This document shows, one piece after another, positions 3,811-39,971 of a stretch of DNA of 43,452 nt (position 1 is its first letter; the number at the start of each line of letters is the position of its first letter). The stretch is from an uncultured Bacilli bacterium (lineage in GTDB: Bacteria > Bacillota_I > Bacilli_A > RF39 > UBA660), in NCBI GenBank assembly GCA_947588895.1, contig CANQBF010000006.1, positions 1-43,452 on the forward strand. Reading direction: 5' to 3'. Made by a program: the position numbers and the translations under genes. Under the pieces are notes generated by a model. The model made no database searches. It saw only the letters and a list, made by a program, of their open reading frames with translations, and was not told the origin of the DNA.

Positions 3811-5547
3811 ATGAAAAATAAAATAGTCTTAAAAATATTTTTCTTTTTAACATTATTTTTATTTAATGTCATGTTTTGCCATGCTGAAATATATCGAGCT
3901 AAATTAACTGGTAATGCCGTTAATTTAAGAAGTGGACCAGGAACAAACTATTCTTCATTAAAAACATTACAAGTTAGTACGGAATATAATATGGTTGATA
4001 ATACTTTATATCCGGATGAAGGTGGATGTGAATCTGGTTGGTATAAAATTTATTATGAAGCTAGTGCAACGGGATATGTATGTAGTAAATATGTTACAGT
4101 TTCTACATTAGTATTTAGCGAAGAAGCTAAAACGGATTGTGAAAGCAAATTAAAAGAAGCAGGTTTTCCAGTTACTTATTGGACTGGTTTATGTAGTTTA
4201 AAACAGGTTCATCCTAACTGGGAATTTAGTCCCGTATTTACCGGTCTTGATTGGAGTAGTGCGGTGGAAGCTGAAAGTGCTTGTGGTAAAAGTTATATAG
4301 CGAGTAGTATTCCAACCAATATTGATAGTACGTGTAAAAATGAATATACCAAAACTTGGTATCCAGCCTCATCAACCGCAGTAGCATATTATATGGACCC
4401 TCGTAATTGGTTTTCCGAAAATACTATTTTTCAATTTGAATATTTAAAATATAGTGATGTTTTAAAAGATAAATATGTTGAGGCTGCAAATAATATAATT
4501 AAAAATGCTGAATTTTATAAATATCATATTGGTTTAGGTAATAATTTAGGTGAAATAATTAATCAAGCATCTTTACAAGCCAATATTAGTCCAATATTTG
4601 TTAGTAGTAGAATATTACAAGAACTAGGTAATCAAACATCTTTATATAATCTATATAGTGGGGTATATAGTGCTCAAAATAATGAATTTTTAGGATATTA
4701 TAATTTCTATAATTTTGGTGTCACAGATTGTTGCGCTACTAGTAGAGGTGCCACAATTTGTGGTCTTGAATATGCTAAAAAGAATAGTTGGAATAGTGTT
4801 TATAATGCTATTTATGGTGGAGCCAGTCAAATTGCTGCTTCTTATATTGCTGTCGGTCAATATAATGGTTATTTACAAAAATTTAATGTTGTACCTGTTC
4901 AAAGTTCAAAATTATATGGTCACCAGTATATGACTAATGTGGCAGCACCATCAAGTGAAGCTAAAACAACATATAATTCTTATAAAAATTTAGGAGTTTT
5001 AGATAGTGCTTTTGTTTTTTATATCCCTGTTTATAATAAAATGGATAATTCATTTTATGCTGGAGGAAGTGGAGCAGTAGATACTCCAGATGATCCTAAT
5101 ACTAAAACGACATTAGATATTAATACTATAGTTGTTAGTAGTGGTTATAAATATCAAAGTAATCTTATAAGTGGAATACCTTCAAATACTGATGTAAATA
5201 TTGTTAAAGGTAATTTAGAAAGTATTGCTGGTTCTGGTAATGTTATGATTAAAAATAAAGATGATGTTCTTGTAAGTGATGGTTTAATTGGTACAGGATT
5301 TAAAATAACTATTAAAAATCAAGATTCAGAAGCAACTTTAACAGTTGTTATTAATGGTGATACATCAGGTGATGGTATAATTAATGCCTTAGATTTATTA
5401 CAAGTTCAAAAAAATATATTAGGAACATATGAATTAAGTGGTGTCTATCAAAATGCTGGAGATACATCTGATGATGGTAACGTTAATGCGCTAGATTTAT
5501 TACAAATTCAAAAAAGTATTTTAGGCACATATACAATTAATTATTAA
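3811..5547 (+). CDS. Secreted SH3b/glucosaminidase peptidoglycan hydrolase with C-terminal dockerin
   Basis: A 578-residue exported wall hydrolase. In order: signal peptide (residues 1-26, ending CHA); an SH3b-like domain (about 30-100, NAVNLRSGPGTNYSSL); a region with YMDPRNWFSENTIFQFE, typical of Bacillota glucosaminidases; a GH73-like catalytic core (about 240-385) with the probable catalytic Glu in SRILQELGNQ and a YNFYNFGV motif; a beta-rich linker domain (about 430-510); and a dockerin (about 513-573). The dockerin has two calcium loops, GDTSGDGIINALDLL and GDTSDDGNVNALDLL, with Asp/Ser/Asp/Asn/Asp at ligand positions 1, 3, 5, 9 and 12. The partner cohesin-like protein is encoded 10 bases downstream. 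Cleavage between GlcNAc and MurNAc is the family activity; the exact bond here is not shown. Confidence 0.88.
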   Translation: MKNKIVLKIFFFLTLFLFNVMFCHAEIYRAKLTGNAVNLRSGPGTNYSSLKTLQVSTEYNMVDNTLYPDEGGCESGWYKIYYEASATGYVCSKYVTVSTLVFSEEAKTDCESKLKEAGFPVTYWTGLCSLKQVHPNWEFSPVFTGLDWSSAVEAESACGKSYIASSIPTNIDSTCKNEYTKTWYPASSTAVAYYMDPRNWFSENTIFQFEYLKYSDVLKDKYVEAANNIIKNAEFYKYHIGLGNNLGEIINQASLQANISPIFVSSRILQELGNQTSLYNLYSGVYSAQNNEFLGYYNFYNFGVTDCCATSRGATICGLEYAKKNSWNSVYNAIYGGASQIAASYIAVGQYNGYLQKFNVVPVQSSKLYGHQYMTNVAAPSSEAKTTYNSYKNLGVLDSAFVFYIPVYNKMDNSFYAGGSGAVDTPDDPNTKTTLDINTIVVSSGYKYQSNLISGIPSNTDVNIVKGNLESIAGSGNVMIKNKDDVLVSDGLIGTGFKITIKNQDSEATLTVVINGDTSGDGIINALDLLQVQKNILGTYELSGVYQNAGDTSDDGNVNALDLLQIQKSILGTYTINY

Positions 5548-30805: not shown

Positions 30806-31448
30806 ATTATTAGTGAGTGATATTATTGATTTAAGTACGGGAACTTATTTATTAAAATGTCTTAATAATAAATTAAAAATAACTACTAATGGAGATATAA
30901 CAATTTATATTATTAATGAGTTAATAAATAATTTAGATATTTTAGTTAATGATAATAGTAATATAACAGTATTTATGATTAATAAAAATAATCCAAATAA
31001 TATAGATATAAATATTAATGAAGGAAATAATACTAAAATAGATTTTAATTATACATTTATTAATCATAAAGATAATACCTGTGTTATAAATAATAATATT
31101 AAAGGAAATAATAATAATTCAAATATTAATATTAGAAATATAAGTAATATAGGTTTAAGTAAAATAATCAATAATGTTTATATAGATAAGTTAACTAAGA
31201 ATAATATTGCCTTAGAAGATTTAAAGGGAATAAATAATGGTGGTTTAGTTCATATAGAGCCAAATATAATTTGTTTAAGTAATGAAGTTGAAGCTAATCA
31301 TTTAACTACTATTGGGGGACTTGATAAAGATTCACTTAATTACTTAATGAGTAAAGGAATAAATAAAGATAATGCTAAAGAATTACTATTAAAAGGATTT
31401 ATATATAGTAATATGGATGAGTATATCAAAAGTGTGGAGGTGATATAA
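30798..31448 (+). CDS. Short SufD/SufB-like scaffold protein
   Basis: A 216-residue protein, about half the length of usual SufD or SufB (400-470). The C-terminal signature is intact: GLVHIEPNIICL, EVEANHLTTIGGLD and LNYLMSKGI, which match the beta-helix end and SufC-contact helices of SufD, including a His in the NH position of the family. The N-terminal part is an Asn/Ile-rich beta-helix-like repeat. It lies between sufC (8-base overlap) and sufS (TAATG overlap). No SufB gene follows sufU, where Bacillota normally have it. It may act alone with SufC as a homodimeric scaffold, or sufB may be elsewhere. Confidence 0.75.
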   Translation: MNKLLVSDIIDLSTGTYLLKCLNNKLKITTNGDITIYIINELINNLDILVNDNSNITVFMINKNNPNNIDININEGNNTKIDFNYTFINHKDNTCVINNNIKGNNNNSNINIRNISNIGLSKIINNVYIDKLTKNNIALEDLKGINNGGLVHIEPNIICLSNEVEANHLTTIGGLDKDSLNYLMSKGINKDNAKELLLKGFIYSNMDEYIKSVEVI

Positions 31449-32644
31449 TGCATAGAGAAGATTTTCCCATGTTAAATCAAGATATAATATATTTAGATAA
31501 TGGAGCAACTAGTTTAAAACCAAAATCAGTTATTGATAAAACAATCGATTATTATGAAAATTATAGTGCTAATGCTCACAGAGGAGATTATGATATTTCT
31601 TATAAAGTAGATTTAGAATATGAAAATACAAGAGATTTAGTCAAAGAATTTATTAATGCTAGAAGAAAAGAAGAAATTGTTTTTACCAGTGGAACAACTG
31701 ATAGTCTTAATTTAATAGTTAATGGATTTTTTAGAAATTATTTAGAAAAAGGGGATGAAATAATTTTAACTAAAACTGAGCATGCTTCTAATATTATGCC
31801 TTGGTTTAGAATTGCTGGTTTAACGGGAGCAGTAATTAAGTATATACCTTTAGATGATAATAATTTTGTTACTTTAGATAATTTAAAAAAAGTTGTTACT
31901 CCCAATACTAAAGTTATTAGTTTAGCTGAAATTACTAATGTTATTGGGGATAAAAGACCAATTAAAGAAATTACTAAATTTGCTCATGAAAATGATATTT
32001 TTGTTGTAGTAGATGGAGCTCAAAGTGTTCCCCATACTAAAATAGATGTTATTGATACGGATATTGATTTTTTAGCTTTTTCATCTCATAAAATGTTAGG
32101 ACCTACTGGTGTTGGTGTTATGTATGCAAAATATGAACTTATGCAAAATATTGAACCAGTTAATTTAGGTGGTGGCATGAATGAGTCATTTGAAAGTCCA
32201 TCAAAAATGGTTTTAAAAGAAGTTCCAACTCGATTTGAAGCTGGTACTCCTAATATTGCCGGTGTTATTGCTTTTGGTGAAAGTATTAAATATTTAAATA
32301 AAATAGGAATGGATTATATTGAAAAATATGAAAAAGATTTACGAAAATATTTAATTGAAAAATTAATAAATATTCCTCATATTGATATTTTAAATTTAGA
32401 AGCTGATTCTGGAATTGTAGCATTTAATGTTGAAGGTATTTTCTCTGAAGATGTTGCTTATTATTTAAATAAATATGGTATATGTGTAAGAGCAGGTAGT
32501 CATTGTGCTAAGCTTACGAAAGACGTTTTAGGAGTAGCTAATTCAATAAGAGTTAGTTTATATTTTTATAATACTGAATCAGAAATTGATAGTTTAGTTG
32601 AGTTGTTAAAAGATAAAGATAAAATATTAAAAGAGATGTTATAA
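31448..32644 (+). CDS. sufS: Cysteine desulfurase SufS
   Basis: PLP enzyme that removes sulfur from cysteine for iron-sulfur cluster building, handing it to SufU. 398 residues, group II (NifS/CsdB-like). Visible: YLDNGATSLKPKSV, the substrate and PLP region DGAQSVPHTKID, the Schiff-base Lys in FSSHKMLGPTGVG, and the short catalytic-Cys loop RAGSHCAKL (His-Cys-Ala kept; RxGHHC is more usual). The start overlaps the preceding stop (TAATG). A terminator follows, then sufU from what looks like a separate promoter. Confidence 0.93.
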   Translation: MHREDFPMLNQDIIYLDNGATSLKPKSVIDKTIDYYENYSANAHRGDYDISYKVDLEYENTRDLVKEFINARRKEEIVFTSGTTDSLNLIVNGFFRNYLEKGDEIILTKTEHASNIMPWFRIAGLTGAVIKYIPLDDNNFVTLDNLKKVVTPNTKVISLAEITNVIGDKRPIKEITKFAHENDIFVVVDGAQSVPHTKIDVIDTDIDFLAFSSHKMLGPTGVGVMYAKYELMQNIEPVNLGGGMNESFESPSKMVLKEVPTRFEAGTPNIAGVIAFGESIKYLNKIGMDYIEKYEKDLRKYLIEKLINIPHIDILNLEADSGIVAFNVEGIFSEDVAYYLNKYGICVRAGSHCAKLTKDVLGVANSIRVSLYFYNTESEIDSLVELLKDKDKILKEML

Positions 32645-32669
32645 AGAAGTAGTGATATACTTCTTTTTA
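32644..32669 (+). terminator. Terminator between sufS and sufU
   Basis: AAGAAGTA (32644-32651) pairs with TACTTCTT (32658-32665), followed by TTTAT. Confidence 0.7.
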
Positions 32670-32671
32670 TA

Positions 32672-32700
32672 TTGACATTAAATTAATTTTGCTTTAAATT
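32672..32700 (+). promoter_or_regulatory. Probable sufU promoter
   Basis: A perfect TTGACA (32672-32677), a 17-base spacer, then TAAATT (32695-32700), a weak -10. Confidence 0.5.
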
Positions 32701-32722
32701 ATTAATGAAATGAGTGATTTTT

Positions 32723-33151
32723 ATGGATAAAGAATTAGGAAGAGAAATTATATTAGAAAATTTTCAGTATCCAATGAATAAAGAAGAAGTAAATGATTCA
32801 AATTATATTAAAGTAAATAGTAATAATCCTAATTGTATTGATAATTTAGATATTTATCTTTTAATTGAAGATAATAAAATTACTGATATTAAATTTATGG
32901 GAGAAGCTTGTGCTATTTCAACGGCATCAACATCAATTATGATTAAAAATTTAATTGGTAAAAGTATTAAAGAAGCTAAAGATTATATTAATAATTTTTA
33001 TCATATGTGTAATGAAGAAGAATATAATAAAGAAATATTAAATGAAGGTTTAGCTTTTCAAGATATTTATAAACAAAGTAATCGTAAAAATTGTGCTTTA
33101 CTTCCATATAAAGGAATATTAAAAGCTTTAGAAGATTATGAAAATAAATAA
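32723..33151 (+). CDS. sufU: SufU zinc-dependent sulfurtransferase
   Basis: A 142-residue IscU-like fold protein that in Bacillota accepts sulfur from SufS rather than acting as a scaffold. The zinc and sulfur ligands are all present: Cys and Asp in NPNCID, the second Cys in GEACAISTAS, and the third in NRKNCALLPYKGIL. Size is normal. The start at ATG 32723 is chosen over GTG 32714, which lies in the weak GAGTGAT ribosome-binding region. Unlike most Bacillota operons it is separated from sufS by a terminator and promoter, and no sufB follows. Confidence 0.9.
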   Translation: MDKELGREIILENFQYPMNKEEVNDSNYIKVNSNNPNCIDNLDIYLLIEDNKITDIKFMGEACAISTASTSIMIKNLIGKSIKEAKDYINNFYHMCNEEEYNKEILNEGLAFQDIYKQSNRKNCALLPYKGILKALEDYENK

Positions 33152-34174: not shown

Positions 34175-36454
34175 ATGAAAGAAGATGTAATAAGTGATTT
34201 AATTGTTGTTAAGAGAAGTGGCCAAAGAGTCCCTTTTAACCGCACAAAAATAGCAATTGCTATCAAAAAAGGGTTTGATAGTGTTTATGAAGATTATGAT
34301 GAAAAAATCGTCAATAAAATACTAGAAAAAGTTGTTAAAACTATTGAAAAAGAATATCAAGAAAGAAAGACAATTGGGATTGAAGAAATTCAAGATATTA
34401 TTGAAAAAGAGTTACAAAAAACAGACGAAAGTGTTTATAAATCTTTCTCAGAATATCGTGAAAGAAGAGCAGCATCTCGTGAAGCTTTTGTCGGTTTAAG
34501 TAAACCTCAACATAAATTTGTTAAAGCGATTGAATCTTTAGGTCTTAAGAGTTCTAAAGAAGAAAATGCAAAAAGAGAAAATGCCAATATTGATGGTGAT
34601 GGTCCAATGGGAACAATGCTTCACTTTGGAGCAACAGTTTCTAAAGAATTTGGTAAAGCTTATTTAATGGATGCTAAATATGCTAGAGCTCATGATGAAG
34701 GTGCAATTCATATTCATGATTTAGATTTTCTAGCTATGGGAACTACTACATGTAATCAAATTGATTTAGAGAAATTATTTAAAAAAGGTTTTTCAACAGG
34801 TCATGGTCATTTAAGAACACCAAATGATATTATGAGTTATACCGCTTTAGCTGCTATATGTATTCAAGCTAATCAAAATGATCAACATGGTGGTCAAAGT
34901 ATTCCAATGTTTGATTATTATATGGCACCAGGTGTTAAGAAGACATTTAAAAAACAATTAAAACAAACATTATATGATTTCCTTGATTTAGATGGTTTCT
35001 TAGGGGAAGTTAATTTTGATAAAATTGTTGAAGTTATTAATAAACAAGATACAATAGCTTATAATCCGAAAGAAATATTTAAAGATTTTATAACAAGTGA
35101 TAGATTAGAAGAAATAATTCAAAAAGGTTATGATAAAGCAATGGCTAAAACTGATAGAATTACTTATCAAGCAATGGAAGCATTTATTCATAACTTAAAT
35201 ACAATGCATAGTAGAGCTGGAGCTCAAGTACCATTTTCATCAGTAAACTTTGGTACTGATACATCTCCAGAAGGAAGAATGGTAATTAAGAATTTCTTAC
35301 TAGCTACTGATGCTGGACTTGGTCATGGCGAAACACCTATTTTCCCAATTTCTATTTTCAAATTAAGAGAGGGTGTAAGTTATAATGTTGATGATCCAAA
35401 TTATGATTTATTTAAACTAGCTTGTAAAGTATCAGCTAAAAGAATGTTCCCTAACTTCTCATTTATGGATTCATCATTTAATAAACCATATTTAAAAGGT
35501 ATGGACCCAAAAACAGAAGTTGCATATATGGGATGTAGAACAAGAGTTATTGGTAATGTAGTTGACCCTGAAAAACAAATTACACCAGGAAGAGGTAACT
35601 TATCATTTACGACAATTAATTTGCCAAGACTTGGAATAAAACATGGTATAGTTGATGGTAGTAGAGAAAAAGCTGATATGAAAGGCTTTTATGAAGAACT
35701 TGATGAATTACTTGATTTATGTAAAGGTCAATTACTTCAAAGATTTGATATTCAATGTAGTAAATCAGTTGCTAATTTCAAATTCTTACTTGGCTCTCAT
35801 GTATGGCTTGATTCTGAAAAATTAGAGCCAGGACAAAAAATTAGAAAAGTATTAAAACATGGTACTTTATCAATTGGTTTCATTGGTCTTGCTGAATGTT
35901 TAAAAGCTTTAATTGGTGAACATCATGGCGAAAGTGATAAAGCTCAAAAATTAGGACTTGAAATAGTTTCTCATATGCGTAAAAAATGTGATGAATATTC
36001 TGAAGAAATGAAACTTAACTTTACTTGTCTTGCTACACCTGCTGAAGGATTAAGCGGTAGATTTGTTGGTATTGATAGATCAATTTATGGTAAGATTAAA
36101 GGTGTTACAGATAGAGAATATTATACAAATTCATTCCATGTACCAGTTTATTATAAAACAACTATTCAACATAAAATGGAAATTGAAGGTAAATATCATA
36201 AACTTACTAATGCTGGACATATTTCTTATATTGAAATAGATGGTGATACAGCCAATAATGTTGAAGCATTTGAAAAGATAATTCGTATAATGCATGATAA
36301 TGATATTGGTTATGGTGCAGTTAACCATCCAGTTGATAGAGACCCAGTTTGTGGCTATGTTGGAGTTATTAATGACGTATGTCCAAGATGTGGTCGAAGA
36401 AATTTTGAAGGGGTTCCGGTTGAAACAATAAATAGCTTAGAATGTGATTGCTAA
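34175..36454 (+). CDS. nrdD: Anaerobic (class III) ribonucleotide reductase, catalytic chain lacking the glycyl-radical domain
   Basis: Reduces ribonucleoside triphosphates to dNTPs without oxygen. 759 residues: an N-terminal ATP-cone (about 8-100, VVKRSGQRVPFNRTKI), then the ten-stranded barrel with GPMGTMLHFGATVS, HIHDLDFLAMGTTTCNQ, RAGAQVPFSSVNFGTD, LGHGETPIFPISIFKL, the thiyl-radical Cys in AYMGCRTRV, and GRGNLSFTTINLPRLG. The protein ends soon after a zinc-binding cysteine cluster (VCGYVG, DVCPRCGRR, ECDC). The glycyl-radical segment that normally follows is absent; it is encoded by the next gene. The stop is followed by a strong independent ribosome-binding site. Operon with the radical peptide and nrdG. 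Confidence 0.92.
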   Translation: MKEDVISDLIVVKRSGQRVPFNRTKIAIAIKKGFDSVYEDYDEKIVNKILEKVVKTIEKEYQERKTIGIEEIQDIIEKELQKTDESVYKSFSEYRERRAASREAFVGLSKPQHKFVKAIESLGLKSSKEENAKRENANIDGDGPMGTMLHFGATVSKEFGKAYLMDAKYARAHDEGAIHIHDLDFLAMGTTTCNQIDLEKLFKKGFSTGHGHLRTPNDIMSYTALAAICIQANQNDQHGGQSIPMFDYYMAPGVKKTFKKQLKQTLYDFLDLDGFLGEVNFDKIVEVINKQDTIAYNPKEIFKDFITSDRLEEIIQKGYDKAMAKTDRITYQAMEAFIHNLNTMHSRAGAQVPFSSVNFGTDTSPEGRMVIKNFLLATDAGLGHGETPIFPISIFKLREGVSYNVDDPNYDLFKLACKVSAKRMFPNFSFMDSSFNKPYLKGMDPKTEVAYMGCRTRVIGNVVDPEKQITPGRGNLSFTTINLPRLGIKHGIVDGSREKADMKGFYEELDELLDLCKGQLLQRFDIQCSKSVANFKFLLGSHVWLDSEKLEPGQKIRKVLKHGTLSIGFIGLAECLKALIGEHHGESDKAQKLGLEIVSHMRKKCDEYSEEMKLNFTCLATPAEGLSGRFVGIDRSIYGKIKGVTDREYYTNSFHVPVYYKTTIQHKMEIEGKYHKLTNAGHISYIEIDGDTANNVEAFEKIIRIMHDNDIGYGAVNHPVDRDPVCGYVGVINDVCPRCGRRNFEGVPVETINSLECDC

Positions 36455-36485
36455 AATAGATAGAAAGAAAGAGGAGGAATATAAT

Positions 36486-36671
36486 ATGGAAGCAAATACT
36501 AAAAAATGTAAAACTATTGGAGAAGGAGTAGGATTTGAAAATATCCGTCGTATTACAGGTTATCTTGTAGGTACACTAGATAGATTCAATAATGCTAAAA
36601 AAGCAGAAGAACATGATCGTGTTAAACACACTGGTGTAACTGCTAACGAGAGTTGTAACAAAGCTGCATAA
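36486..36671 (+). CDS. Detached glycyl-radical domain of class III ribonucleotide reductase
   Basis: A 61-residue protein consisting essentially of the C-terminal radical segment of NrdD. RRITGYLVG carries the probable radical Gly, followed by TLDRFNNAKKAEEHDRVKH, the usual NrdD ending. A 20-residue lead (MEANTKKCKTIGEGVGFEN) precedes it. AGGAGG (36472-36477) stands 8 bases before the ATG, the strongest ribosome-binding site in the operon, so it is made independently rather than by frameshifting; the frame can be read 14 codons further upstream into the end of nrdD, but without a site. It would be activated by NrdG and inserted into NrdD, much as GrcA (YfiD) complements pyruvate formate-lyase. 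The split role is inferred. Confidence 0.85.
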   Translation: MEANTKKCKTIGEGVGFENIRRITGYLVGTLDRFNNAKKAEEHDRVKHTGVTANESCNKAA

Positions 36672-36681
36672 GGAATAAATT

Positions 36682-37245
36682 ATGAAGATAAGACTAGCAG
36701 CACCACTTCAATGTGATAGTGTTGTTGATGGTTTTGGAGTTAGGACAGTTATTTGGACACAAGGATGTTCTCATAATTGTCCTTTTTGCCAAAATCCTAG
36801 TACACATGATTTTAATGGTGGTGCCGATTTTGAAATAGATGACATTTGTGCCGAATTACAAGATATAAAAAAGAATAAAAAGCAAGATGGTATAACTTTA
36901 AGTGGGGGAGACCCAATGTTTCAAGTTGATAGTGTGCTAGAAATTGCTAAATTTGCTAAAAAAATCGGTTTAAATGTATGGTGCTATACTGGTTTTACTT
37001 ATGAACAAGTATTAGATTTAGGCAAAAAAAATAAAAACTATTTAGAATTACTAAAATATCTTGATGTTTTAGTTGATGGTAGATTTGAAAATGATAAAAA
37101 AGATTTAACTTTACTTTTTAGAGGTTCATCAAATCAAAGATTAATTGATGTTCCCCAAACTTTAAAAAGAGGAGTAGTTACATTAGTACCTGAAAGTGAT
37201 GGTATAATGGAAAAATTTAAGAATAAAGAAAAATTATATATTTAA
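36682..37245 (+). CDS. nrdG: Anaerobic ribonucleotide reductase activating protein
   Basis: Radical-SAM enzyme that abstracts hydrogen from the radical glycine of NrdD, here from the detached peptide encoded 10 bases upstream. 187 residues with the CxxxCxxC cluster motif in GCSHNCPFCQNP, the GGE-like LSGGDPMFQ, and WCYTGFTYEQV typical of NrdG. AGGA overlaps the preceding stop region. Last gene of the operon. The [4Fe-4S] cluster would come from the SUF system encoded a few kilobases away. Confidence 0.95.
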   Translation: MKIRLAAPLQCDSVVDGFGVRTVIWTQGCSHNCPFCQNPSTHDFNGGADFEIDDICAELQDIKKNKKQDGITLSGGDPMFQVDSVLEIAKFAKKIGLNVWCYTGFTYEQVLDLGKKNKNYLELLKYLDVLVDGRFENDKKDLTLLFRGSSNQRLIDVPQTLKRGVVTLVPESDGIMEKFKNKEKLYI

Positions 37246-37279: not shown

Positions 37280-37340
37280 TTTTTTCTAAAATTTATAATA
37301 AAAATATTATATAATTATTATGAATAGAAAGTTGGTAAGT

Positions 37341-39092
37341 ATGAAAATATTAAATAAATTAATATTTATATTATTGTTGGTATTATTAAGTACTTATCAA
37401 GTATCTGCTTTAGAGCAATTTGTATTTGAAAAAAGTAATCCTAAACTAGGAAATGTTTCTTTAAATGATCCTTATTTTAATTTAAAAGATTATGGTTTAT
37501 TAACTACAGTAAAAAATCAAAGTTCAACTAATTCTTGTTGGATATTTGCTACTAATGCATCTATTGAATCAAATCTACTAATGAATGATTATGGTTTTAA
37601 TGATTTATCGGAAGCTCATCTTGAAATGTCCACCCAAAATACCTATGTTTATAATCGTAATACTTTTTTAAGAAAAATTAATACCGGTGGTAATTATAAT
37701 ATTGCTGCAAGTTATTTAATGAATTCATGGGGTCCAGTTAAAGAATCAGAATTAAGTTTATATGATTTACAAAATTTATATAATAATAATGTTTTAATTG
37801 ATGAGAATAAAATAATAAATGTAAAACCAAGTGTTGATGTTAATTCAATTGCTTTTATAGGTAATAATGGTAAATGTTCAAAAGATACAATTAATGATAT
37901 TAAAGAGTATTTAATTACTAATGGAGCTTTAGCAGCAACTATATATACCGATAATAGTGATGTTTTTAAAAAATATTATTATTATGATGGTAAAGAATTT
38001 ACTACTAAAGATGGTAAAGTAATTTCTAAAAATCAAAATGTTAATCATGGTGTAACTATTGTTGGGTGGGATGATACCATTTCAAAAGATAAATTTTCTC
38101 AAACTAATCCACCTTCAACTAATGGAGCTTTTATAATTAAAAATTCTTACGGAGAAAAAATGAGTATAGGTGGTATTAACGCTGTAAAAACTAATATGTA
38201 TCGTAAATATCATAATAATATTAATATTAGTAGTATTAATGATATAACTGATAGTATGCTTACAACTTTAATTGCTAAAGAATATGATGTTTCTCCTGAA
38301 GATATATCTTATCGTTATAATGAAGTTTATATTAATATTGGCAATGCAGGATATAATTATATTTCCTATGATGATATTTATGTTTGTAATTCTGTAGTCG
38401 GTTTTTTTGATACATCAACGAATGTTGAAGATTATAGTTATTATTATGATTATTTAGGCTATAATGCTGTTTATCAATTAACTAATCAAAATAAATTATA
38501 TTTAATGAGTATATTTAATAAACAAAGTTTAGAAAATGAAAAATTAGAAGAAGTATCTTTATATTTTCCAAAAATAAATGAAAAATATGAAGTATATTTT
38601 GCTAATGGTAAAGAAAAAGATGTTAACAAAATGGTTAAAATAGGTGAGGGAGTATCCAAATTTATTGGTTATGCTACTTTAAATTTAAATAATAAACCAA
38701 TAATAAGTAATGATAAATATACAATTATAATTAAAATAAATGATAAAGATGTAAATATTGGGGTATCTACTAAATCAAGTGGTAATTATCTTAATATGGA
38801 ACTGATACCTGATGTGCAGTTTATATCTAGAGATGGTAAAAATTATTCTGATGTTACTAAATTAGCTAATAATCAATTTCATTTAACAATGAAAGCCTAT
38901 AATAATAAAGCAACAAAGGATAATTTAATTGAAGATGTTAATCCTGAATTAGGTAATATACCTACATTAGATGTAAACATTAATACTAATAAAAAGTATA
39001 CTTTTAAAGAAACGTTTAATAAAATATTACCATATATTTTAATTGTTGATGTCATTATAATTATTATAGTTATGATTTTAATATTTGTTTAA
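37341..39092 (+). CDS. Membrane-anchored papain-like (C1A) cysteine protease
   Basis: An exported protease of about 583 residues. A signal segment (about 2-24, LIFILLLVLLSTYQVSA) leads to a C1A catalytic domain (about 40-300) with the oxyanion Gln in VKNQSS, catalytic Cys in NSCWIFATNASIES, His in NHGVTIVGWDD and Asn in FIIKNSYG. After it comes a beta-rich domain (about 310-540) like the lectin-type extension of clostridial C1 proteases, then a C-terminal span (ILPYILIVDVIIIIIVMILIF) that anchors it outside. I prefer ATG 37341, because the only good -10 (TATAAT 37310-37315) would start transcription past the ATG at 37320. Target proteins are unknown. Confidence 0.82.
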   Translation: MKILNKLIFILLLVLLSTYQVSALEQFVFEKSNPKLGNVSLNDPYFNLKDYGLLTTVKNQSSTNSCWIFATNASIESNLLMNDYGFNDLSEAHLEMSTQNTYVYNRNTFLRKINTGGNYNIAASYLMNSWGPVKESELSLYDLQNLYNNNVLIDENKIINVKPSVDVNSIAFIGNNGKCSKDTINDIKEYLITNGALAATIYTDNSDVFKKYYYYDGKEFTTKDGKVISKNQNVNHGVTIVGWDDTISKDKFSQTNPPSTNGAFIIKNSYGEKMSIGGINAVKTNMYRKYHNNINISSINDITDSMLTTLIAKEYDVSPEDISYRYNEVYINIGNAGYNYISYDDIYVCNSVVGFFDTSTNVEDYSYYYDYLGYNAVYQLTNQNKLYLMSIFNKQSLENEKLEEVSLYFPKINEKYEVYFANGKEKDVNKMVKIGEGVSKFIGYATLNLNNKPIISNDKYTIIIKINDKDVNIGVSTKSSGNYLNMELIPDVQFISRDGKNYSDVTKLANNQFHLTMKAYNNKATKDNLIEDVNPELGNIPTLDVNINTNKKYTFKETFNKILPYILIVDVIIIIIVMILIFV

Positions 39093-39094
39093 AA

Positions 39095-39133
39095 TGTACG
39101 AAAAATTTATAAAAAATGTACAAATTGTACGAA
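39095..39133 (+). promoter_or_regulatory. Cluster of TGTAC(G/A)AA sites upstream of murI
   Basis: Three copies, at 39095, 39117 and 39126. The last two form a 15-bp near-palindrome, TGTACAAATTGTACG. It looks like a repressor or activator site. No known regulator is assigned. Confidence 0.35.
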
Positions 39134-39225
39134 ATTGTGATAGTATATAAAAAGATTATCTGTGCTAATATATGTTATATTTTGCATAAAATAAAGAAGA
39201 AAAACTATTAAAGATGAAAGCAAAA

Positions 39226-39234
39226 TGCTATAAT
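39226..39234 (+). promoter_or_regulatory. Extended -10 of murI-murD
   Basis: TGC followed by TATAAT; the -35 region is poor (TATTAA). The ribosome-binding site AGGGTGG lies between it and the start. Confidence 0.55.
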
Positions 39235-39251
39235 GAATTAAGGGTGGTTAA

Positions 39252-39971
39252 ATGAAAGTTGGTATATTTGATTCCGGTGTTGGAGGTTTAACAATTTTAA
39301 AATCATTAATTAATAAATATCCCCATAATACTTATATTTATTATGGAGATACAATCCATGCACCATATGGTAATAAAAAAATAGAAGAAATAGTAACTTA
39401 TAGTAAAAATATTATTAAATTTTTAGAAGATGAAAATGTTGATTTAATTATTATTGCCTGTGGAACATTAAGTTCTAATAAAGAATATTTACATAGTAAT
39501 AAACCATTAATTGATTTATTAACACCACTAGATAATAAACTTGATAATTATCATAAAATAAGTATTATGGCAACACCTTTAAGTATCAAAACTAATGCTT
39601 TTAAAAAATATATTCATAATAATTTAAATTTAATTGCCTGTGATAAATTAGTTGATATTATTGAAAAATGTGAATTTAATAAATTAGATGAAATTTTACA
39701 AGAATATATGAAAAGTACATTTGATAGCGATGCTTTATTACTTGGATGTACTCATTATCCAATTATTAAAGAATATATAGCTAAATATTTTAATAAAAGA
39801 ATTATTACATTTGATGAATATTTAAAAGATTTAATAACTGAAGATATAAATGATAAGGGAAGTATTAAATTATATTTTAGTTATATAGATGATAATGTTT
39901 TAAAAAATATTAATAATATTTTAAATAAAGATGTAAATATAGAGAGGAAGATATTAGATGTTAGAAAATAA
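39252..39971 (+). CDS. murI: Glutamate racemase with altered active-site loop
   Basis: Makes D-glutamate for peptidoglycan. 239 residues, about 25 shorter than usual. Clear landmarks: GIFDSGVGGLTILK, YYGDTIHAPYGNK, the first catalytic Cys in IIACGTLSS and the second in LLGCTHYP. The first loop normally reads ACNTAS; here the substrate-contacting Asn is Gly, and the following VIEPG element is replaced by LLTPLD. Both catalytic cysteines remain, so racemase activity is likely but not certain. It overlaps murD by 14 bases, coupling D-Glu supply to its ligase. Confidence 0.85.
   Translation: MKVGIFDSGVGGLTILKSLINKYPHNTYIYYGDTIHAPYGNKKIEEIVTYSKNIIKFLEDENVDLIIIACGTLSSNKEYLHSNKPLIDLLTPLDNKLDNYHKISIMATPLSIKTNAFKKYIHNNLNLIACDKLVDIIEKCEFNKLDEILQEYMKSTFDSDALLLGCTHYPIIKEYIAKYFNKRIITFDEYLKDLITEDINDKGSIKLYFSYIDDNVLKNINNILNKDVNIERKILDVRK

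Follow-up and report, generated by a model that had tools for sequence, protein, structure and literature searches.

A class III (anaerobic) ribonucleotide reductase (RNR) divided between two genes is encoded in a stretch of 43,452 nucleotides from an uncultured Bacilli bacterium (GenBank assembly GCA_947588895.1, contig CANQBF010000006.1, positions 1 to 43,452, forward strand), hereafter the window. We report that its catalytic chain, NrdD, stops before the glycyl-radical domain (GRD), that this domain is the product of a small gene lying between nrdD and nrdG, and that the enzyme is very probably an obligate two-chain RNR whose GRD is provided in trans. The split apparently also arose independently in other gut lineages and in some phages.

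The nrdD Locus

All three genes lie on the forward strand. nrdD (34,175 to 36,454, stop TAA) codes for a class III RNR catalytic chain of 759 aa without a GRD, which comprises an ATP-cone, the barrel, a finger loop bearing Cys454 within AYMGCRT, a zinc knuckle and a C-terminal tail ending in LECDC. The chain matches NF005497 with 996 bits (cut-off 764), and its ATP-cone matches PF03477 with 56.7 bits, above the curated cut-off. Its match to PF13597 (619 bits) spans model positions 1 to 533 of 562 and stops there, and no GRD is found in the chain. The end of the same model (positions 522 to 562) is matched, with 33.7 bits (cut-off 26.2), by the product of the stand-alone GRD gene at 36,486 to 36,671 (61 aa plus stop, ATG start at 36,486), which begins MEANTKKCKTIGEGVGFENIRRITGYLVGTLDRFNNAKKAEEHDRVKH and carries, in a small separate protein, the glycyl-radical motif RRITGYLVG...DRVKH. 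Gly25, within RRITGYL (codon at 36,558 to 36,560, positioned from the sequence), is presumed from knowledge of the NrdD family to be the radical glycine. The next gene, nrdG (36,682 to 37,245), codes for a radical-SAM activase (TIGR02491, 156 bits, cut-off 126.1) and would be expected to install the radical on Gly25 of the small peptide. An earlier note on this DNA had described an NrdD separated from a 61-aa radical gene with its own start and followed by nrdG, and both the coordinates and the PF13597 matches agree with that description. With the peptide as query, no NCBIfam model was returned over its cut-off (best 48.4 bits vs 764), and PF01228, the glycyl-radical domain of pyruvate formate-lyase (PFL) and GrcA, gave no match (E up to 1).

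The GRD gene starts 31 nt after nrdD, in the +1 frame relative to it. No intron, intein or endonuclease was found at the break, where the 31-nt gap leaves no room for an inserted element. Within NrdD, the finger-loop cysteine Cys454 (MGCR type) is invariant in both NrdD alignments examined. The zinc knuckle consists of three cysteines (726, 736 and 739) rather than four, Asp723 being aligned to the first zinc cysteine of the Prevotella copri NrdD; since intact relatives also have a three-Cys/Asp knuckle, this feature is not tied to the split. The earlier statement that NrdD ends after its zinc cysteines is right as to the position of the stop, beyond the knuckle, and needs amending as to the cysteines. 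After CPRCGR comes the C-terminal tail, RNFEGVPVETINSLECDC (36,398 to 36,451), in which a GRD-like segment is followed by a terminal Cys-x-Cys.

Ribonucleotide Reductases of the Source Genome and Its Family

The source genome is a metagenome-assembled genome (MAG) of 1.1 Mb in 81 contigs, 82.9% complete, from which a second NrdD copy could be missing. PF13597 has only two matches in it, NrdD and the peptide, and no match was obtained in the assembly for class I/II reductases (PF02867) or for PFL and GrcA (PF01228), the latter being unmatched in a genus-mate (G088) as well. A full-length NrdD elsewhere in the genome, which the earlier note had named as a finding that would overturn its proposal, is thus not seen in this assembly, and the two-chain enzyme is the only visible route for de novo synthesis of deoxynucleotides (dNTPs). 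Across the family, PF13597 was matched in 136 of 145 genomes, PF02867 in 2 of 141 (one over the cut-off) and PF01228 in 96 of 141; part of the PF01228 rows are cross-matching NrdD chains, so that fewer genomes hold a true PFL. Class III RNR therefore appears to be the sole source of DNA precursors in many of these anaerobes.

Conservation of the Split

The earlier note had left open whether related genomes share the split, and had proposed checking that NrdDs of the clade also end after the zinc site. Both points are now answered. At least 61 of the 145 family genomes are split, their NrdD match either ending at model positions 530 to 538 (50 genomes) or crossing an in-frame stop (11 genomes); 35 of the 61 were read directly. 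Loci without an NrdD recognizable by motif (L015, L020, L024-L028, L031, L053 and a few others) remained unclassed. In other family genomes the NrdD of this type (YMGCRT) is intact, and many genomes hold a second, divergent, intact NrdD (C/PMGCRS). Three NrdDs of this second type (L076, L077 and L078) terminate ahead of the zinc knuckle or inside it, and no GRD was found in their vicinity; they are either pseudogenes or another split.

In a collection of named genomes, at least 590 stretches were matched and 580 confirmed, of which the best 80 were kept and classed: 58 are split, 17 intact, two lack the GRD and have none adjacent (both Ruminococcus MAGs), two lie at contig edges and one is cut. 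Split examples include Candidatus Pelethosoma (L121), Candidatus Faecimonas (L128) and Candidatus Onthousia (L132), placed by the NCBI taxonomy in Bacilli or Mycoplasmatota without an order; we take their lineage to be RF39 of the GTDB. Together, the family genomes and the named MAGs yielded 93 distinct split NrdDs.

Frames, Selection, and Translation Signals

An nrdG-like open reading frame (ORF) comes next after the GRD gene in 52 of the 58 split loci; one locus ends at a contig edge and five lack such an ORF by pattern. Relative to NrdD, the GRD lies in frame 0, 1 or 2 in 27, 18 and 13 of these loci, respectively, and its start lies between -29 and 47 nt from NrdD (the window plus 57 split loci, L157, in which no ATG was found, being left out). 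The GRD peptide is under purifying selection: against four near relatives, dN is 0.15-0.27 and dS 0.58-1.03, for a dN/dS of about 0.17-0.32, while that of NrdD is about 0.12-0.14. An assembly error or a pseudogene might be suspected in a MAG as fragmented as this one, and is ruled out by relatives split in all three frames and by the purifying selection; with 93 distinct split NrdDs at hand, and the split enzyme usually being the only RNR, we consider its probability negligible.

A programmed frameshift or stop read-through, which would yield one full-length chain after all, could draw on the peptide reading frame being open back to 36,444, where it overlaps the end of nrdD, and on some relatives having both genes in frame with a single stop. 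Such a mechanism is nonetheless very improbable given the three frame offsets and the variable spacing, given that the GRDs mostly possess an ATG and a Shine-Dalgarno (SD) sequence of their own, and given that the GRD genes of the Ruminococcus genus, described below, are unlinked to nrdD.

In the window, the GRD gene is preceded by the SD sequence AGGAGG (36,472 to 36,477), whose duplex energy of -11.9 exceeds in strength those of nrdD (-8.5) and nrdG (-5.1), as the earlier note had observed. Its further suggestion that the radical subunit is over-produced does not hold as a general feature: among 51 complete loci, no more than 20 have their strongest SD before the GRD, although the SD of the GRD surpasses that of nrdG in 47, and the median energies are -9.3 for nrdD, -8.7 for the GRD and -2.7 for nrdG. 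Judged by these signals, the pattern fits a GRD made in amounts roughly matched to NrdD, with less of the activase.

Number of Origins

Trees were built on the NrdD core with GRD and tail removed; these are quick trees with SH-aLRT support only. Rows with short cores (L065-L067) and copies of the window (L001 and L002) were dropped, and for a wider tree the split rows of the family were thinned, bringing the total from 122 to 91 rows, with two contig-edge loci (L113 and L226) counted as split. Split and intact rows interleave on these trees. Approximately unbiased (AU) tests rejected a single clade of split NrdDs within the family (39 vs 16 rows, p 4e-8), of all GRD-less rows (65 vs 26 rows, p 4e-60), and of the family's adjacent splits together with those of the Ruminococcus order (49 vs 42 rows, p 5e-5). 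A single origin of the split is accordingly ruled out at p 5e-5 or lower; refusion and lateral transfer can contribute to the interleaving.

Separate Glycyl-Radical Domains in Other Bacterial Lineages

The two named loci without an adjacent GRD (L184 and L186, titled Ruminococcus) hold GRD-less NrdDs with the tails TERIKRIKMPDCCN and HERLRRICCD, and their genomes contain one and three unlinked GRD matches, respectively. Throughout the genus of L184 (loci L184, L186 and L188-L202), the NrdD match stops before the glycine (16 of 16 genomes, 10 of them read), and an unlinked GRD match of about 90 aa occurs in 12 of the 16, some genomes having two. These longer stand-alone GRDs carry some 45 extra residues (V.V.NG.LS..EI.AYI...YP...I..L.I..DG.YVD..Y) ahead of FERIRRITGYLVG. 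Within the order of L184, which we take to be Oscillospirales, 147 genomes were searched and 140 gave a match, 27 of them with an NrdD stopping at 530-539. Twenty of the 27 loci were fetched, and no NrdD among them includes the GRD. A GRD gene adjoins nrdD in 17, one locus lies at a contig edge, and two show no adjacent GRD within the approximately 2.7 kb examined. Extra GRD paralogues were also seen in Ruminococcus-type genomes (L193, L214/L216), that of L193 near a topoisomerase-like ORF in what looks, by eye, like a mobile element. In L237, two tandem GRD genes stand behind one GRD-less NrdD.

Stand-alone GRDs of the 90-aa type are also present in 7 of 245 Bacilli genomes, in families outside that of the window. 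Five of the seven (G293, G323, G349, G390 and G437, from three families) encode an intact NrdD alongside, an arrangement that resembles a spare part. In G277, a single contig, an NrdD of the window's type ends LERIPRINLESE with no GRD in the chain, the stand-alone GRD lies at a distance of over 1 Mb, and the genome also encodes a divergent second NrdD that is intact.

Could a stand-alone GRD be a repair part and nothing else, replacing the tip of a full-length NrdD cleaved by oxygen? The five Bacilli genomes just described would suit such a role, as would the PFL precedent and the speculation about other glycyl radical enzymes voiced in passages of PMC8683613. As an account of the window it is improbable, for its own genome shows no full-length NrdD to repair, and the NrdD next to the GRD lacks a GRD of its own in the 58 split named loci.

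Glycyl-Radical Domains on Viral Contigs

When GRDs of the 90-aa type were used as the query, 364 places on viral contigs passed confirmation, of which the 80 most similar to the query were retained (L240-L319). Seventy-four of these 80 are stand-alone GRD ORFs of less than 200 aa, a count that is not a frequency since the query favours stand-alone GRDs; the other six were missed by motif. The contigs, of up to 251 kb, are viral according to the label of the collection. Encoded near the viral GRDs are, for instance, a tail protein in L302 and a virion structural protein in L278, and 4 of 10 neighbour proteins searched had no PHROGs match. A GRD-less NrdD lies in the flank of three loci (L251, L304 and L305, the last two being near copies), and in L251 a GRD-less nrdD, a GRD and an nrdG-like ORF occur together. 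In Eggerthella phage EL753P1 (L054, about 3935-4140), a GRD-less nrdD is followed by another ORF and then by a GRD that changes frame just before the glycine loop, with FERIRRI in one frame and TTGYL in another.

The distribution described so far bears on the possibility that nrdD underwent a neutral fission, after which the two chains assemble tightly and permanently once translated, and neither exchange nor repair is gained. Under such a fission, ribosome-binding sites of similar strength on GRD and nrdD, and adjacent genes in a single order, such as the window's relatives show at their split loci, are what one would expect. More than one origin, on the other hand, suggests a use for the free GRD, and unlinked GRD genes in the Ruminococcus genus, GRDs beside intact NrdDs, the tandem pair of L237 and GRDs on viral contigs likewise tell against neutrality, which we hold to be a serious, if somewhat unlikely, possibility.

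NrdD Tails and the Terminal Cysteine Pair

The tail left on NrdD resembles the segment that precedes the glycine (RRITGY) in the GRD, with a mean best 9-mer identity of 4.5, compared with 2.3 for shuffled tails, over 58 related and thus non-independent pairs. In the Ruminococcus genus, the chain of several NrdDs stops almost precisely at the radical-glycine site (ERIRRITCSC vs FERIRRITGYL). For PFL and YfiD, passages of PMC8683613 indicate that one strand is similarly found in both proteins.

A cysteine pair lies within the last eight residues of 68 of the 93 split NrdDs of the family set, and all 11 of the Ruminococcus-type tails that were read end in one; it is missing from the NrdD ends of L238, L239 and G277. 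When the pair is counted on whichever chain bears it, 70 of 93 family pairs and 12 of 17 pairs from Oscillospirales have it, or 82 of 110, compared with 0 of 28 intact NrdDs, the counts being non-independent as the sequences are related. Mutual exclusion between the chains was also considered and is not significant (Fisher p 0.72 in the family, 0.08 in Oscillospirales). A reducing role for the terminal pair is a guess. In the passages available, class III enzymes are said to lack the requisite C-terminal cysteines (PMC4390871), and an MGCR finger loop is said to point to formate as the reductant (PMC9669993).

Predicted Structure and Neighbouring Genes

AlphaFold gave a barrel of fair confidence both for NrdD alone (23-row alignment), with no usable placement of the tail, and for NrdD read through into the GRD (34-row alignment). 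The read-through model resembles the P. copri NrdD structures 8p2s and 8p23 (TM-score by target length 0.87 with 8p2s_B).

Upstream of the RNR operon, ORFs named by eye as a SufS-like cysteine desulfurase and a SufU-like scaffold occupy 31,448 to 33,151; behind nrdG, ORFs named in the same way as a papain-like secreted protease and a glutamate racemase occupy 37,320 to 39,971.

A Probable Two-Chain Class III Reductase

Taken as an obligate two-chain RNR, the window enzyme would work as follows. The large chain would supply the barrel, the ATP-cone, the thiyl-forming Cys454 and the zinc knuckle, and the separately translated 61-aa subunit the glycyl-radical loop. NrdG would activate Gly25 of the small subunit, whose docking in the barrel would allow the glycyl radical to oxidize Cys454 as in a one-chain NrdD. 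We infer from the genes that the small subunit binds in trans, that NrdG acts on it either free or bound, and that the assembled chains are catalytically active. As the window NrdD has no GRD of its own, the 61-aa peptide would be an obligate subunit. Conservation across many genera, more than one origin and purifying selection strongly support the separate radical subunit that the earlier note had suggested. Its likeness to the GrcA/PFL system holds for the architecture, but the spare-part arrangement proper, with a partner that has its own GRD, is that of the five Bacilli genomes and not of the window.

Several observations weigh against this two-chain reading. No NRDD match was obtained in nine of the 145 genomes of the family, and some family members may manage without NrdD. 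A GRD match is missing from 4 of the 16 Ruminococcus-genus genomes, and G325 (L071; 96% complete) has a stand-alone GRD and no NrdD match; incomplete assemblies may explain both. The SD of the GRD is not consistently stronger than that of nrdD, and hence gives no sign of excess GRD production. The read-through prediction shows no confident docking of the GRD, residues 746-804 having a pLDDT below 50 and the glycine region one of 22-25. Finally, the window NrdD has the formate-type MGCR loop although its own genome has no PF01228 match.

Oxygen destroys the glycyl radical and cleaves the chain at the radical glycine with loss of the tip. A separate GRD would therefore make the damaged piece exchangeable, a benefit for and against which the case is evenly balanced, and a small separate radical tip could in principle be replaced like a cartridge. 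By analogy with GrcA, replacement of this kind, as a repair after oxygen damage, is plausible. The split may then be where a GrcA-like spare-part system has ended up and become fixed; the intact NrdDs with a stand-alone GRD in other Bacilli families would be its earlier state, and the GRD-less NrdDs with unlinked GRDs in Ruminococcus a parallel end state. A wider proposal, which we regard as possible but doubtful, is that the GRD is an exchangeable subunit in gut anaerobes; that phage copies plug into the GRD-less NrdD of the host or of the phage itself and sustain dNTP synthesis; and that the freed C-terminus, where a cysteine pair is often gained, may return the active site to its reduced form as in class I/II enzymes, radical supply and reduction alternating in one docking site.

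Comparison with Known Systems

The literature searched, mostly without subscription papers, yielded no recognizable description of a class III GRD encoded apart from its NrdD; automatically named entries for small proteins of this kind may exist in the databases. One-chain class III RNRs (P. copri 8p23, S. thermophilus 9d3x and phage T4 1h79) share with the window enzyme the barrel, the MGCR finger loop and the neighbouring nrdG, and those of P. copri and S. thermophilus share the ATP-cone as well, but in all of them the catalytic chain itself ends in the GRD. The C-terminal cysteine pair of class I/II RNRs finds a parallel in the CxC or CC that is common on GRD-less NrdDs or their GRDs. Among divided RNRs, NrdJa/NrdJb is likewise a two-chain enzyme split towards the C-terminus, but belongs to class II; a split nrdA is that of a phage which we take to be Aeh1. 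Phage RNR genes occur in pieces, nrdD most often (6 cases), and the passages available of the paper in question present these splits as sporadic and either tied to mobile elements (introns, inteins, endonucleases) or unexplained, without describing a separate conserved GRD protein (PMC3653736).

The small stand-alone GRDs GrcA/YfiD of E. coli and Y06I of phage T4, both for PFL, similarly serve a large barrel enzyme, and Y06I has its parallel in the viral GRDs reported here, as far as the passages seen of PMC8683613 allow the comparison. They belong to another enzyme family (PF01228), whereas the window peptide belongs to PF13597, and the partner of GrcA/YfiD, PFL, possesses its own GRD, which the window NrdD does not. 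If the two-chain reading is true, separable parts would lend themselves naturally to studies of how the radical is transferred, how the activase recognizes its target and how oxygen damage is repaired, and a detachable, repeatedly separated and phage-borne GRD would make directly testable the speculation, found in the same passages, that spare parts exist beyond PFL (PMC8683613).

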